IMG/VR virus record: IMGVR_UViG_3300010938_000123
Coordinates: 1-27,140 of that record
Origin: a virus
Direction: 5' to 3' (one strand)
DNA length: 27,140 nucleotides
Of this stretch, positions 20,190 through 27,140 are shown piece by piece (the first letter of the stretch is position 1; every line of letters begins with the position of its first letter). A program made the position numbers and the translations under genes. The notes beneath the pieces are model-generated. The model made no database searches, had not been told where the DNA came from, and worked only from the letters and a program-made list of their open reading frames with translations.

Positions 20190-20864
20190 TTACTCCTTCT
20201 TAATTGGATATTTAAGTGCAATCAAATCCAATTCACGGGTTCGCAATACTTGTCGCACTACGAGTTCCTCTTCTGTACCGCCTGATACAGCCTGAGGTTG
20301 TGGTTCTGATTCGGTTGCTGGTTGAAATTTCGAGCGCACAGCTGCACTCGTTTGTGGATATGCCCCAAAGGTTGCAGGGCATACATCAAACAATTCAGAA
20401 ATTTCAGTAATCGTGCGTAAGGGTAGTTCTTTACTTTCATCGGGCGGATAAAACCATTTTTCTTTGCCTACTTGAAACGCGAAAGACGATTGACTGACAT
20501 CGCCACGTGCCACTTTGGCATAAACACTCATGGCTTCGGGATCATCGGGGTTGATATCAATTTCATAATCCAAGCCGTTTGGTGTTTCATTCAAAAGTAA
20601 TGTGTTGGCAGTGGTGCGCCCTAAGACAACATTCCAATTGTGATTAAAACAACCAATCGTGTCAGGATTGTTTTCGAGCACCTTACGAAATGCGCCGGGC
20701 TCAATTTGTTCACGAAACCAACCGCGAATGACTGTCTCCTGATTGAAGACTGCGGCTTGCCCTTTAATAACGAGCTTGTCATCGGCGCGTTTTTCAGCAC
20801 GCACTTCTAACTGGATAAAGCGTGTCTCGACAAAGTCGGGTAATTGATTATTTTCATTCGGCAT
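20190..20864 (-). CDS. HK97-family prohead protease
   Basis: The product is 224 residues from ATG 20864, with GAGGAG about 7 nt upstream; a longer in-frame start at 20879 overlaps the portal gene and has no such site. The pattern includes LVIKGQAAVFNQETVIRGWF, IEPGAFRKVLEN, the catalytic His region CFNHNWNVVLGRT (His75) and the Ser motif RGDVSQSSFAF (Ser126), and ending in TFGAYPQTSA. These define the U35 prohead protease. It cleaves the capsid delta domain and itself. The C-terminal 50 residues are acidic, Gln- and Pro-rich. The gene order portal-protease-capsid is standard. Confidence 0.92.
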   Translation of the reverse strand: MPNENNQLPDFVETRFIQLEVRAEKRADDKLVIKGQAAVFNQETVIRGWFREQIEPGAFRKVLENNPDTIGCFNHNWNVVLGRTTANTLLLNETPNGLDYEIDINPDDPEAMSVYAKVARGDVSQSSFAFQVGKEKWFYPPDESKELPLRTITEISELFDVCPATFGAYPQTSAAVRSKFQPATESEPQPQAVSGGTEEELVVRQVLRTRELDLIALKYPIKKE

Positions 20865-22407
20865 TTTTATACTCCTCAACCAACCGCAACATAGTTTCTA
20901 CACTTGGTTCATGGGCTTCATCTGCGGACACAGTCTGCCAACGCAGTTCACAGTATTCAGCAATAATTTCACTTGCACGTTCTTCTTGTAAATAATTTGC
21001 TTCAACAAATGGCTTGAATAATTGCGCAATAAATTCACGGTGTTCTTTTTGATAAAAATTCTCAAGCCATGCGGCATATTTTTCAGGCTTATCTTTGCAA
21101 CGTTTGCTTGCATCACGTACTTCATTTGCTTCACGGCGCGCCAGTCGTTCGAGCATGTCTTTGAACAGTGGTTCGATATCAACATCGCGCTTGCTTGGGG
21201 CTGGCTTTGTATCAGACTTGCCAACCACGGTCATATTCAACGGAATCAGCATTGCATCCAAGCCTGCCATCGGCATTTTGTTTTCCATCTCACGTACTTC
21301 ATTGCGCGTGAGTATGCCGTTATTAATCGCTGAAACATAAGCACTCATGCGAGTGGCGATGTCTGTTCGCAAGAAATCTTCCACCAAATGTTCAATGACA
21401 ATCTTCTTGCGTTCGCTTTCGAGTAATAAATCTTTCTGTGCGCTTTGCTCGATGCGCTTTAACCACGGGCGCAAGGTGTGTGATAAATAACCAATCTCTT
21501 GTTGTTCAATACCCGTACCCCAACTGGTACTGCGTTCTACATCACCAAGCATGTGAGGTGGCACTCTGAACATACGCGCAATTTCACCAAGTTGAAAGCG
21601 ACGCGTCTCGATAAATTGGGCATCATCAGGTGGGATGCCAATCTTCTCGATGGTCATGCCTTCTTCCAGAATTGCCATACGATGTGCTTTATCTGCACCA
21701 CGATATTCTTCATTCCAAGATTCTTTGAGGCGGTTGTAGGTTTTATCTTCCATCTGTCTGGGGTGTTGAATCACCACGCCCGGCACTGCACCGTTCTCAA
21801 AGAATTTGCTACCAAACTTTTCTGCCGCAATCGAAAGCCCGATGGCATGTCGTGCTTGTGTGATACGCGAGTATCCGACCAAACCATCAAAGCCAAAAGC
21901 AGGGATGTGCCAGATTTCTTCTTGACGAAATGCACGCTTGTTACCATTCATTTCGGTATATAAATATTTGCGCTCGCCGTTTTCACGAAATACTTTCATG
22001 CGGTCGGGGCGCAGGGGCCACAACTCACGCAAGATGCCGCGACGATCCCATATCTTCTGACTGAAGTGATTGCCCCAGCCAAGCAAGTGACCCATAATGA
22101 ATTCACGGTAGACCAAGCTGGTGTGTTCTGGATTTGGAATGTCATGTAATAGTACGTAGTATGGACTGTCATAAAAACGTTCTTTGCCACGCTCTAAACG
22201 CTGATAGGTAATCAACGGCAGGCTGGCAGTGTCTTCCATCAATATAGTGAATGCCGCAAGCACCGAAGCCACTGTTAATGCGGCTTCAACGGAAACTTCT
22301 TCGCCTGCATACGACCCCATGCCATAGCCACGCACCACCCAACCAGGCGGTGATTGAGAGACGTGAAAAGCTGAACGTTCCTCCACCATCTTTGCCGTGA
22401 TAGGCAT
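20854..22407 (-). CDS. Portal protein (HK97 family)
   Basis: The 517-residue product starts at ATG 22407, with AGGAAAG upstream. It has the HK97 portal features: VSVEAALTVASVLAAFTILM, SPYYVLLHDIPNPEHTS, then WGNHFSQKIWDRRG with ELWPLRPDRMK, AEKFGSKFFENGAVPG, and the RMFRVPPHMLGDVERSTSWG motif with QEIGYLSHTLRPW. The dodecameric portal forms the DNA channel at one vertex. The C-terminal 130 residues are helical and charged, as usual. It follows two small membrane proteins. Confidence 0.93.
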   Translation of the reverse strand: MPITAKMVEERSAFHVSQSPPGWVVRGYGMGSYAGEEVSVEAALTVASVLAAFTILMEDTASLPLITYQRLERGKERFYDSPYYVLLHDIPNPEHTSLVYREFIMGHLLGWGNHFSQKIWDRRGILRELWPLRPDRMKVFRENGERKYLYTEMNGNKRAFRQEEIWHIPAFGFDGLVGYSRITQARHAIGLSIAAEKFGSKFFENGAVPGVVIQHPRQMEDKTYNRLKESWNEEYRGADKAHRMAILEEGMTIEKIGIPPDDAQFIETRRFQLGEIARMFRVPPHMLGDVERSTSWGTGIEQQEIGYLSHTLRPWLKRIEQSAQKDLLLESERKKIVIEHLVEDFLRTDIATRMSAYVSAINNGILTRNEVREMENKMPMAGLDAMLIPLNMTVVGKSDTKPAPSKRDVDIEPLFKDMLERLARREANEVRDASKRCKDKPEKYAAWLENFYQKEHREFIAQLFKPFVEANYLQEERASEIIAEYCELRWQTVSADEAHEPSVETMLRLVEEYKNAE

Positions 22408-22410
22408 GGA

Positions 22411-22620
22411 TTATTTCTTTCCTGTTGTTAAGGTACGAGGTGCAACCCACGCCAAGAAGTACGAGGTCAACACCGATTCGGCGACAATAATGCCGCCGCA
22501 AATCATCAAGGCTGTTGCCATAGAAACATGCAAGGCGACACCTGCAAATAACATCAGCAAGCCAAGCCAGTAGGCAACTTCGTTGCGGTCGAGCGATTGA
22601 AAAAAAGAAAATAATTTCAT
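22411..22620 (-). CDS. Small membrane protein with two transmembrane helices
   Basis: The 69-residue product has hydrophobic helices at about 16-32 and 35-58, with a charged N-terminus (SLDRNEV) and a short basic tail TTGKK. It overlaps the preceding gene by 4 nt (ATGA). Proteins like this recur before the portal of siphophages, and holin or envelope functions have been suggested; I regard its role as unknown. The end of the gene shares about 20 nt with the junction before the other small membrane gene. Confidence 0.6.
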   Translation of the reverse strand: MKLFSFFQSLDRNEVAYWLGLLMLFAGVALHVSMATALMICGGIIVAESVLTSYFLAWVAPRTLTTGKK

Positions 22621-22859
22621 TTGTCTCTGCCACGCATTTCGGATATTTCGCGCCCCAGCTGTTTGACTTCTTCGGCGATGCGCCCGATGGCTTGATTGGT
22701 TGATTCAGTGTGTTTGTTTAAGAATTCCCTCCATTGCTCATCGCGTCTTTCCATTGCTGTCAGGAAGTCTTTGTTTTGGCGTAAGGTAAACCAAATAAAC
22801 ATCCCCACCAATGGAACTTGAATGAGCAATCCAATGTATGAATTTATAGCGGCTTCCAT
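22617..22859 (-). CDS. Putative holin-like protein (single N-terminal TM, coiled coil)
   Basis: The 80-residue product has one hydrophobic helix (INSYIGLLIQVPLVGMFIWF) at its N-terminus followed by a charged helix (ERRDEQWREFLNKHTEST, then RIAEEVKQLGREI). One membrane helix plus a charged tail resembles small bacteriocin-/BhlA-type holins, but no endolysin is visible nearby, so a lysis role is uncertain. AGGAAA is 12 nt upstream of ATG 22859. It is the first gene after the terminator hairpin and is preceded by an 8-codon leader. Confidence 0.5.
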   Translation of the reverse strand: MEAAINSYIGLLIQVPLVGMFIWFTLRQNKDFLTAMERRDEQWREFLNKHTESTNQAIGRIAEEVKQLGREISEMRGRDK

Positions 22860-22889: not shown

Positions 22890-22903
22890 AAAACTCCTTA
22901 AAC

Positions 22904-22938
22904 AAAAACCGCCCGAAGACAAATATGTCTTCGGGCGG
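22904..22938 (-). terminator. Strong intrinsic terminator in the late-operon leader
   Basis: A perfect 13-bp GC-rich stem (22909-22921 with 22926-22938, loop AATA) is followed on the minus strand by TTTTTG. It lies about 60-90 nt after the promoter at 23003-23030 and before the head genes. Without anti-termination it would block the head and tail operon. Confidence 0.85.
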
Positions 22939-23002
22939 CATCACTCCGAAAGAAACGCCACAAATGAATCGCGGCACGCCTAGTCGTTATTCAGTTGAAA
23001 AT

Positions 23003-23030
23003 ATTATAGCACTTTTGTAGATTTTGACAA
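23003..23030 (-). promoter_or_regulatory. Putative late promoter
   Basis: On the minus strand TTGTCA (23030-23025) and a perfect TATAAT (23008-23003) are 16 nt apart. Start is expected near 22996. The transcript would run into the terminator 22904-22938, as with lambda pR' and tR'. Confidence 0.75.
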
Positions 23031-23040
23031 GCCTGTTAAA

Positions 23041-23081
23041 TGATAAATCCCAGAGTGAGGGGGGCACCCTGAGATTTATCA
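23041..23081. terminator. Long imperfect hairpin after the terminase block
   Basis: Perfect 9-nt arms TGATAAATC (23041-23049) and GATTTATCA (23073-23081) are extended inward by CAG/CTG and GTG/CAC with two single mismatches, with a G-rich loop. On the minus strand it is followed by TTTAAC. It may end the terminase transcript just before the late promoter. Confidence 0.55.
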
Positions 23082-23112
23082 AGATAAAATTTAGAACAAG
23101 ATTTCTAATTCG

Positions 23113-23281
23113 TCAAGGGTTGCGCGGGCGAATGAAGTTGTTGATGTTTTGCAATTCATCGAGGATGTGATTCAAATCGCCAACGTGGGTCCAGTTGTGA
23201 CCACCTTGTGAACTGGCTTTGCGGTCGTGATTGATTAAGTTCGCGTCAAGCCGATTCTTTTGCTTGTTTTACGGTTGCCAT
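23113..23281 (-). pseudogene. Small phage protein gene with a +1 frame break
   Basis: ATG 23281 has AAGGAG 6-7 nt upstream but reads only MATVKQAKESA before TGA. One base later the +1 frame reads KQKNRLDANLINHD and then GGHNWTHVGDLNHILDEL to TGA 23113, clearly coding-like. Skipping one A in the GTAAAACAAG stretch would give a continuous 55-residue protein. It may be a sequencing error, a mutation or a +1 programmed shift. Helical and polar, probably cytoplasmic; unknown function. Confidence 0.55.
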
Positions 23282-23337: not shown

Positions 23338-25014
23338 TTATATAAAGCGAAGCCCGCGATCTTCATATACACTTTTTGTTTCTGGATGGCGCAGTGCTAA
23401 ATCTAAACCCATGATGCCTGCCACGATACCATCTATTTTGTATTTAGATTTGCTTTTGCTTGGTTTGATAGAACCTGCGGCGTTTTGCTCTGCAACTAAG
23501 TTACCTGCCATCCAAGATAAAACTGGGTTGCCTGCATGGTGTAATTTTTTGGAAGCCACCAAACGTAAAAATTCTTTTGTCGGTGCAGGCATAGACTTGA
23601 AACCTTGACCAAAATCAATCATTTCAAAACCCATGTCTTGTAGGTCTGCGACTACTTCACGCGCACCCCAGCGGTCAAAAGCAATTTGCTTGATATTGTA
23701 TATCTCGCCTAGTTCGCCGATTTGTTTTTTTATTAAGCGCAGGTCTATGACGTTGCCTGGTGTGGTTCTTAGAAAGCCATCACGCTCCCACGCTTCATAA
23801 TTGACACCGTGACTGCGTGCTCTTTCAACAATATTTTCTTCTGGTATCCAAAAGAATGGAAGCCAGAAATGGGCTTCATCATCATACGCAAAATCTAAGA
23901 CGAAGGCGGCAATGTCGTTGGTAGCGGCAAGGTCTAGCCCGCCAAAGCACACCTGACCTTCCAGTGCAGGCAAAGGTTTCAAGTTGGCTAACCACATTTC
24001 GTTGGTAATGAGGCGCGATTCTTGTTCAGTCCAAACGTTCAATGCCAAGCGTTTGAATGTGTTTTGATAACCAGGTATTGCAATCGCCATTTGTACTTCT
24101 TCTTCAAATGTGTTGATCGGAATGGTGACCCCTAAGTTTGGGTTGGCTTTCTGCCATGTTTTGGGATTGGTCCAATCATCGCCTTCGTCTATGGTGTAAA
24201 TGACACCCCAATATGAATCATCTTGGACCACGCCTTCTAATATGCGCTGGGTGTATTCCCACATTTCATAACATATAGATTGGCGGTCGTAGCCTGCGGT
24301 GGTAAGCATAATAAACATAGGTTGGCGGCGAGCTTTGCCTGCTTGCCATAGCGCATCAAACAGCTCACGGTTTTGTTGAACGTGAAGTTCATCTATTGTG
24401 ACTGCGTGGGCATTCCAGCCATGTGCTGTGCCTACCTTAGATGCTAAGACGTGAAAAGCCGAGTTGGTATCTTGGCGGATGATTGTTTTTTTGAAAGGCT
24501 CACATATTTTTATCAGTTCAGGGCTTGCCTCAACCATTGCTTTTGAAGCGTTAAATACAATGCCCGCCTGTTCACGTGAACCTGCTAAGGCATAAACGAG
24601 TGATGATATTTCGTTATCAGCAGTTAATAAAAAAATATCTAATCCACTGGCGATGGTACTCTTGCCGTTCTTTTTAGGAATGGCGCAAAAGATGCGGCGG
24701 TATTTTCTTGTGCCATCAGCGATGCGCTTCCAACCAAATGGAATGTAGATGAGCATAGCAACTTGCCAATCTTCTAATACAAACGGGTCGCCTGCTTCGC
24801 TATGCACAGAACTTTGCGGGTGCTTTAATACTTCGGTAAAAAAATCTTCGGCATACTGCGCGGCTTCAGGGTCAAAATAAAATCCGCGTTCTTTTGCAGT
24901 TTTCAAGTCATCTATGTGGCGTTGACAAGCCAACTTGACCCATTTGCAAGCGGGTATTTTGCCTTTGATGACAGCTCGCATGTAACGTTCGGCGCGGTGT
25001 AGTTTACGAGCCAT
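23338..25014 (-). CDS. Terminase large subunit
   Basis: The product is 558 residues. The ATPase half has a Walker A-like IPKKNGKS (112-119), Walker B AVTIDELH (204-211) and LTTAGYDRQSICYEM. The nuclease half has GGLDLAATND (Asp361), AFDRWGARE (Asp447) and KIDGIVAGIMGL (Asp528), the three acidic positions of the Terminase_1/HK97-type nuclease. It cuts concatemers and pumps DNA into the prohead through the portal. It follows a 95-residue protein and the P27-type small subunit. Family and motif match leave little doubt. Confidence 0.95.
   Translation of the reverse strand: MARKLHRAERYMRAVIKGKIPACKWVKLACQRHIDDLKTAKERGFYFDPEAAQYAEDFFTEVLKHPQSSVHSEAGDPFVLEDWQVAMLIYIPFGWKRIADGTRKYRRIFCAIPKKNGKSTIASGLDIFLLTADNEISSLVYALAGSREQAGIVFNASKAMVEASPELIKICEPFKKTIIRQDTNSAFHVLASKVGTAHGWNAHAVTIDELHVQQNRELFDALWQAGKARRQPMFIMLTTAGYDRQSICYEMWEYTQRILEGVVQDDSYWGVIYTIDEGDDWTNPKTWQKANPNLGVTIPINTFEEEVQMAIAIPGYQNTFKRLALNVWTEQESRLITNEMWLANLKPLPALEGQVCFGGLDLAATNDIAAFVLDFAYDDEAHFWLPFFWIPEENIVERARSHGVNYEAWERDGFLRTTPGNVIDLRLIKKQIGELGEIYNIKQIAFDRWGAREVVADLQDMGFEMIDFGQGFKSMPAPTKEFLRLVASKKLHHAGNPVLSWMAGNLVAEQNAAGSIKPSKSKSKYKIDGIVAGIMGLDLALRHPETKSVYEDRGLRFI

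Positions 25015-25776: not shown

Positions 25777-25799
<23 letters not shown>
25305..25799 (-). CDS. Terminase small subunit, P27 family
   Basis: The 164-residue product starts with GRKNKPTAIKILAGNPGRRK then EPEPDVILP, the hallmark of P27-family small terminases, followed by a helical centre LTELDLDLLMLYCQNYEGY and NPFLSIANQREEKMIKM and a C-terminal basic tail. It recognises the phage DNA and hands it to the large subunit. The start overlaps the end of the methyltransferase frame by 23 nt. Low lysine-rich tail residues (KSYNKKAKPKSLAEKFF) are typical. Confidence 0.9.

Positions 25800-27140
<1,341 letters not shown>

Follow-up and report, generated by a model that had tools for sequence, protein, structure and literature searches.

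A conserved promoter, structured leader RNA and terminator as a probable late-gene switch in phages related to an uncultured viral contig

The window, by which we mean the whole stretch of DNA analysed, is an IMG/VR virus contig of 27,140 bases and an incomplete record. All of its genes lie on the minus strand except that of the repressor. An early operon carries DnaD-like and DnaC-like genes; from the other end of the window, a ParB/methyltransferase locus is followed by the genes for the small and large terminase subunits (TerS and TerL), the leader described here, two small proteins, portal, protease, capsid and tail. At the ParB/methyltransferase locus, a perfect TGAT repeat of 9.5 copies (26531-26568) sits at the junction of a ParB-like frame and an N6/N4 DNA methyltransferase frame (26525-27025 and 25777-26610, minus strand). 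Relatives carry a single fused gene of ~420-450 amino acids, and the locus looks like a phase-variable methyltransferase. The features around the leader are, in the direction of transcription:

23338 to 25014, minus strand: terminase large subunit gene (PHROG 9, 2e-156), upstream of the switch
23088 to 23116, minus strand: upstream promoter P1, TTGACG-17-TAAATT (9/12 match)
23042 to 23080, minus strand: C-loop hairpin GATAAATCTCAGGGTGCCCCCCTCACTCTGGGATTTATC, near the P1 start site (-22.7 kcal/mol in the window)
23030 to 22904, minus strand: the whole promoter-terminator feature, a near-consensus extended -10 promoter and then a terminator
23003 to 23030, minus strand: promoter P2, TTGTCA-16-TGcTATAAT (11/12 match, TG-extended -10), with -35 TTGTCA at 23030-23025, a 16-nt spacer and -10 TATAAT at 23008-23003
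22955 to 22977, minus strand: leader hairpin H1, whose helix changes on both sides at 4/4 modelled pairs (33 sequences)
22946 to 22951, minus strand: segment X (TTTCGG), able to pair with the terminator 5' arm
22926 to 22939, minus strand: terminator 5' arm T1, whose CCGAAG can pair with X
22904 to 22921, minus strand: terminator 3' arm T2 and T5 tract (-27.8 kcal/mol)
22894 to 22899, minus strand: Shine-Dalgarno-like AAGGAG, immediately past the terminator
22617 to 22859, minus strand: first gene past the switch, 80 amino acids, with one likely membrane segment and then a likely coiled coil
22411 to 22620, minus strand: conserved 69-amino-acid membrane protein gene, between the leader and portal
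20854 to 22407, minus strand: portal protein gene, the first of the head and tail genes (PHROG 12, 9e-114)

The preliminary description of this DNA had placed the promoter and terminator just before the head and tail genes, and rightly so, as the genes for the 80-amino-acid protein, the 69-amino-acid membrane protein, portal, protease, major capsid and tail follow downstream. The 80-amino-acid protein has a relative 81% identical in another phage record (G006). Between the terminator and its gene lies an 8-codon open reading frame, MPIQTGKK* (22889-22863, minus strand), for which AAGGAG would be a good ribosome site.

P2 is the best promoter match in the 12 kb scanned, with a predicted start site at ~22996 on the minus strand. 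The terminator stem (22939-22926 with 22921-22908) consists of 13 Watson-Crick pairs and one G-U pair around a TATT loop; it is followed by T5 (22908-22904) and lies ~89 nt past the predicted start. The leader as a whole folds at -42.9 kcal/mol (z = -6.1). By generic counts, neither promoters (23 vs 19.8) nor terminators (16 vs 13.8) exceed the chance level in this region, yet their combination is beyond chance, because an 11/12 promoter and a terminator of at least 12 bp within 120 nt occurred in 0 of 200 shuffled windows; a weaker pair (10/12 promoter and 8-bp terminator) occurred in 0.5%. The promoter and its predicted start site, the GC stem and T tract expected 60-90 nt later, and their direct succession had all been read from the letters beforehand, and each held up.

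We collected relatives by a portal search. The preliminary description had named conservation in related phages as a check on the leader, and conserved it is: a promoter-leader-terminator unit precedes portal in every relative at least ~48% identical with enough upstream sequence, in the common order -10 box, H1, segment X, terminator and ribosome site. Four of these leaders, with loops that deviate from our model, were recognised by eye (L127, L128, L132 and L148). Portal relatives more distant than ~48% identity gave no convincing leader match. A covariance model built on 14 leader copies (R1) scores the window leader at 56 bits and finds two copies in most longer records. Where both copies are seen, the first stands at the head of the late operon, with a holin-like gene 80-130 nt further on and then HNH, TerS and TerL genes; the second separates TerL from portal. 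The last early gene directly precedes the first copy in several relatives. Chloroflexi bacterium CFX6 carries the pair in its prophage, and HGW-Chloroflexi-6 has it too. A scan of 400 Chloroflexota genomes with R1 gave the phage-type pair in that prophage alone, plus two weak single matches, one of which precedes a holin-like gene. In one further record (L138), two leader copies are just 490 bp apart (3116 and 3607), each preceding a small gene.

Altogether, 69 distinct switch copies have the hairpin, segment X and the terminator in common. In most leaders the ribosome site and start codon of the next gene lie ~20-45 nt past the T tract, leaving little room for an extra promoter, and so the late genes should depend in cis on the leader promoters or on read-through. 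Some first-copy leaders (L215, L217, L216 and L233, the last near 1299) carry a full Shine-Dalgarno sequence, AAAGGAGG, between promoter and H1, mostly with no usable start codon. Searches of Rfam 15 returned no family at or above the gathering threshold in the window, and spurious sub-threshold matches only for the window region and its relatives. The H1/terminator and C-hairpin sequences had no credible match in cultured phage records, and we found no description in the literature of such a leader in these phages. A simple pattern search of viral contigs (TATAATN{35,65}CGGAGTGATG) was discarded, as the matches listed were mostly chance.

Next to its terminator, the leader RNA has a second way to fold. 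Segment X (TTTCGG, 22951-22946) is complementary to CCGAAG (22934-22929) in the terminator 5' arm. In the 33 copies aligned to R1, 10 of the 14 pairs of H1 and terminator vary on both sides, and the covariation score was 0.40 vs 0.21 for shuffled alignments and at most 0.12 with partners slid, in an alignment made to fit the structure of H1 and terminator and hence biased toward it. X was not included in R1. Because the loops differ in length, MAFFT misregistered the short X/T1 cores, and we counted their pairs by script. In counts that kinship among the phages inflates, with X placed by eye in 39 copies, 96.9% of X/T1 cells were paired vs 85.6% when shuffled (0 of 5000 as high); for the 16 distinct X/T1 combinations the values were 93.8% and 75.7%. 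For all 69 distinct copies, we chose the best pairing automatically and used permutation across phages as the control; a phage's own X scored 13.4 vs 10.7 ± 0.3 with the X of other phages, and none of 10,000 permutations scored as high. Single X:T1 pairings are mostly non-significant, the significance residing in the set. The solutions differ among phages (GTCGG/CCGAC, TTCGG/CCGAA, GTCAG/CTGAC, CGAAG/CTTCG, ACGAG/CTCGT, TGACGA/TCGTCG and GCTGG/CCAGC), which argues for real pairing despite kinship. X pairs poorly in a few copies (L146, L147, L130 and L243). The earlier proposal that TTCGG at 22946-22950 pairs with CCGAA of the terminator is thus borne out with slightly wider limits, and on these comparative grounds X:T1 is a real, conserved alternative fold of the predicted RNA.

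The X:T1 hairpin has 5-6 bp, a loop of mostly 9-12 nt and an energy of ~-1 to -10 kcal/mol, compared with -20 to -37 for the terminator. With the terminator so much stabler, X:T1 would lose to it if left to itself. Termination should thus be the default outcome, and read-through must depend on something that tips the balance toward X:T1. Two other accounts of the module were considered. A leaky terminator might act as an unregulated insulator that tunes the level of head-gene expression and shields these genes from upstream read-through. A terminator between terL and portal would indeed block read-through from the terminase operon, but neither the conservation and covariation of H1 and X nor the recurrence of the module where the late operon begins would be explained, and we consider this very improbable. 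Most improbable of all, to our minds, is that the leader is a small trans-acting RNA of the lysogen whose terminator merely ends it. A strong promoter, a compact 90-nt transcript with a terminator and two copies that would raise dosage fit such an RNA; its fixed place before the late genes, which start within tens of nucleotides of the terminator, does not, and X:T1 would have no need to covary.

Upstream of P2, promoter P1 overlaps the palindrome TTAGAAATCTTGTTCTAA (23108-23091), one mismatch off TTAGAAC-N4-GTTCTAA, and this promoter/palindrome layout recurs in ~20 related phages. The palindrome resembles a LexA box. The genome of one host (G014) has four exact copies of TAGAAC-N4-GTTCTA (L408-L411) vs none in the control, two of the four overlapping promoter-like sequences; the shared motif suggests that a host repressor may use the same operator as phage P1. 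With no lexA or recA recognised beside the palindromes in G014, LexA would be no more than a tentative candidate for the operator's protein. The C-loop hairpin near the P1 start site has an almost constant, C-rich loop, TGCCCCCCTCA, in a set of 67 or more distinct copies from viral contigs for which a constant loop was itself a requirement of the search; the stem pairs vary compensatorily among the 67. In relatives the hairpin lies between P1 and P2 or between the promoter and H1, and many copies are near terL or late leaders; many of the leaders have it within them or just ahead of them. A role as a recognition hairpin is possible. The initial reading of the window had overlooked this hairpin and P1, as well as the second switch copy per genome and the apparent lack of a Q-position gene on the contig.

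That reading had called the locus a Q-type antitermination switch with the lambda pR'/tR' arrangement. Part of this stands. A promoter and, soon after it, a terminator precede the late genes, an alternative pairing exists, and all of this is conserved; in several relatives the first copy is placed as pR' is after Q, immediately downstream of a gene for a small protein. In the strict sense the Q-type reading is not supported, as no member of the lambda-Q or Q21 family was found in 15 records, no pause element is conserved and the conserved parts are leader RNA structures, with two complete copies per genome. Lambda Q requires a DNA site and a sigma-dependent pause (PMC7171158). In the window, no NANNAT occurs in the first 32 nt past the -10, nor is such an element conserved in the 19 leaders examined, all 19 of which have a near-consensus -10 lying 46-99 nt before the terminator arm. 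A true processive system of the lambda-Q kind, in which an early protein loads onto polymerase near promoter DNA and makes it terminator-proof, could still use the short X:T1 hairpin purely as a pause hairpin that buys time for loading, and the pR'-like position with its upstream small gene speaks for it. The missing Q families and pause element speak against it, and a second complete switch before portal would be superfluous; we regard such a system as unlikely.

Attenuators controlled by RNA-binding proteins offer closer parallels. In the ANTAR dual-hairpin attenuators (EutV, NasR and AmiR), the second hairpin overlaps the terminator 5' arm and the folds exclude each other (PMC3369931). The leader likewise has two hairpins, the second overlapping the terminator 5' arm, and mutually exclusive folds; unlike the ANTAR targets, its X:T1 loop of mostly 9-12 nt is not an A1/G4 hexaloop. 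None of the 15 phage records contains an ANTAR domain above the cut-off (one sub-threshold match, in G008), though such a protein might come from the host. With the RAT-type antiterminators of BglG and LicT, the leader shares a short hairpin that overlaps the terminator and is presumably stabilised by protein, but no CAT_RBD protein was found in the 15 records, in a search whose controls matched. HK022 put, compared here in architecture from a single source, is a promoter-proximal RNA of two stem-loops with two sites per phage, as in our phages, and is tied to terminator read-through, as proposed here; put, which binds the zinc domain of the RNAP beta' subunit, differs in lying in early operons, in working without a phage protein and in having no strand in common with the terminator (PMC9378689). 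By this comparison, the leader's anatomy appears nearer to ANTAR or BglG-type attenuators than to lambda, and the best reading would be a switch that is lambda-like in logic and RNA-based in anatomy.

We then considered which protein might open the switch. Profiles of the lambda-Q and Q21 families (PF03589 and PF06530) matched 0 of 15 records, the window included, while their controls matched; these records may be incomplete. The Q82 profile (PF06323) matched none of the records and none of the controls either. A small zinc-ribbon-like protein of 90-140 amino acids is often encoded in relatives right ahead of the first copy, at the position that Q occupies in lambda; it shows a W-x-C or W...H start and a C-x2-C motif at its C-terminal end (alignment A6). 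In nine phages the end of this gene lies 59-110 nt ahead of the terminator arm; five of the nine (L305, L312, L316, L378 and L403) were outside profile building, and for L316 the motif was read from sequence and not from the terminator scan. In G004, for instance, the gene spans 20828-21094 and the leader 20684-20773. A profile of the protein matched 8 of 17 leader-bearing records vs 0 of 20 leader-less portal relatives, a co-occurrence that may stem from shared ancestry alone, and records without the first copy tend also to be without its neighbour gene. Its fold is predicted at pLDDT 82 and pTM 0.69. Foldseek and VIA searches with this fold gave no credible or informative match, and Pfam gave weak zinc-ribbon matches. 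We found no such protein in the window or beside the first copy of G007, and in G012 there is a doubtful counterpart and no clear homologue. We tentatively name the zinc-ribbon-like protein as the best candidate for the controlling factor, a choice that could well prove wrong.

The window itself had been described as having no recognisable Q. This is true for the lambda-Q and Q21 models searched; the window is incomplete, however, and seems to be without the relevant stretch. Its early operon ends near a gene whose G010 counterpart is ~2 kb upstream of the first leader copy; the Q-position segment is thus probably missing from the contig, which would partly explain why no Q-like gene is seen there. 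One window protein (837-1208) had been tried as a Q on the strength of a weak zinc match, of DnaJ type, to a Q-like PHROG (7e-4). It was rejected, since the part matched in G010, ~2 kb ahead of the first copy, is confined to the N-terminal region and leaves out the zinc motifs.

That some leader-bearing phages lack the recognised zinc protein would also suit a leader that senses a host factor or small molecule, by riboswitch-like or ribosomal-protein-like attenuation with no phage protein, and such control classically takes the form of two structured hairpins ahead of a terminator, together with a competing fold. Against this, the 400 Chloroflexota genomes yielded just the single pair and two weak singles, Rfam had no match and the leader has no large conserved core resembling a ligand pocket; we hold this account to be quite improbable.

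We think it probable, with real room for doubt, that the feature is an attenuation switch governing transcription of the phage late genes, one that stays off by default until an early phage factor opens it. What the sequences show directly is the set of parts and how they are conserved, the layout in two copies, and the covariation of H1, of the terminator, and of X with the terminator arm; from these we infer regulated read-through, with X:T1 as the antiterminator and a protein as its driver. RNA polymerase would start at P2, and probably also at P1, and make a leader of ~90 nt; by default it would stop at the intrinsic terminator, keeping the head genes off. Once T1 is transcribed and T2 not yet, X would pair with T1 as a small hairpin. 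Toward the end of the early phase, the phage would make a factor that stabilises X:T1 or the H1/X region and lets polymerase enter the late genes, and the two copies, at the start of the late operon and before portal, would respond to this one factor. A fuller proposal is possible, if rather unlikely in all its parts: the C-loop hairpin, H1 and X/terminator would make up a novel family of RNA switches for phage late genes, usually present twice per genome and opened by an equally new family of small zinc-ribbon-like antiterminators that stand in the place of lambda Q and act on RNA, with the C-rich loop maybe a second recognition site and P1 maybe tied to a host repressor through TAGAAC-N4-GTTCTA.

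To our knowledge, late-gene control has been detailed mechanistically for few phage groups beyond the lambdoids. Here, a structured RNA that is absent from Rfam and has strong covariation appears to gate the late genes in many uncultured phages, and the candidate factors make a short list; two relatives sit in Chloroflexota genomes, and it is from Chloroflexota bacteria that the family is known so far. Some 130 bp are enough for promoter, leader and terminator, which makes the switch and its candidate protein testable in a simple reporter strain. If the zinc-ribbon-like protein is the factor, it would represent a new antiterminator family, one that works through a competing RNA fold instead of promoter DNA.
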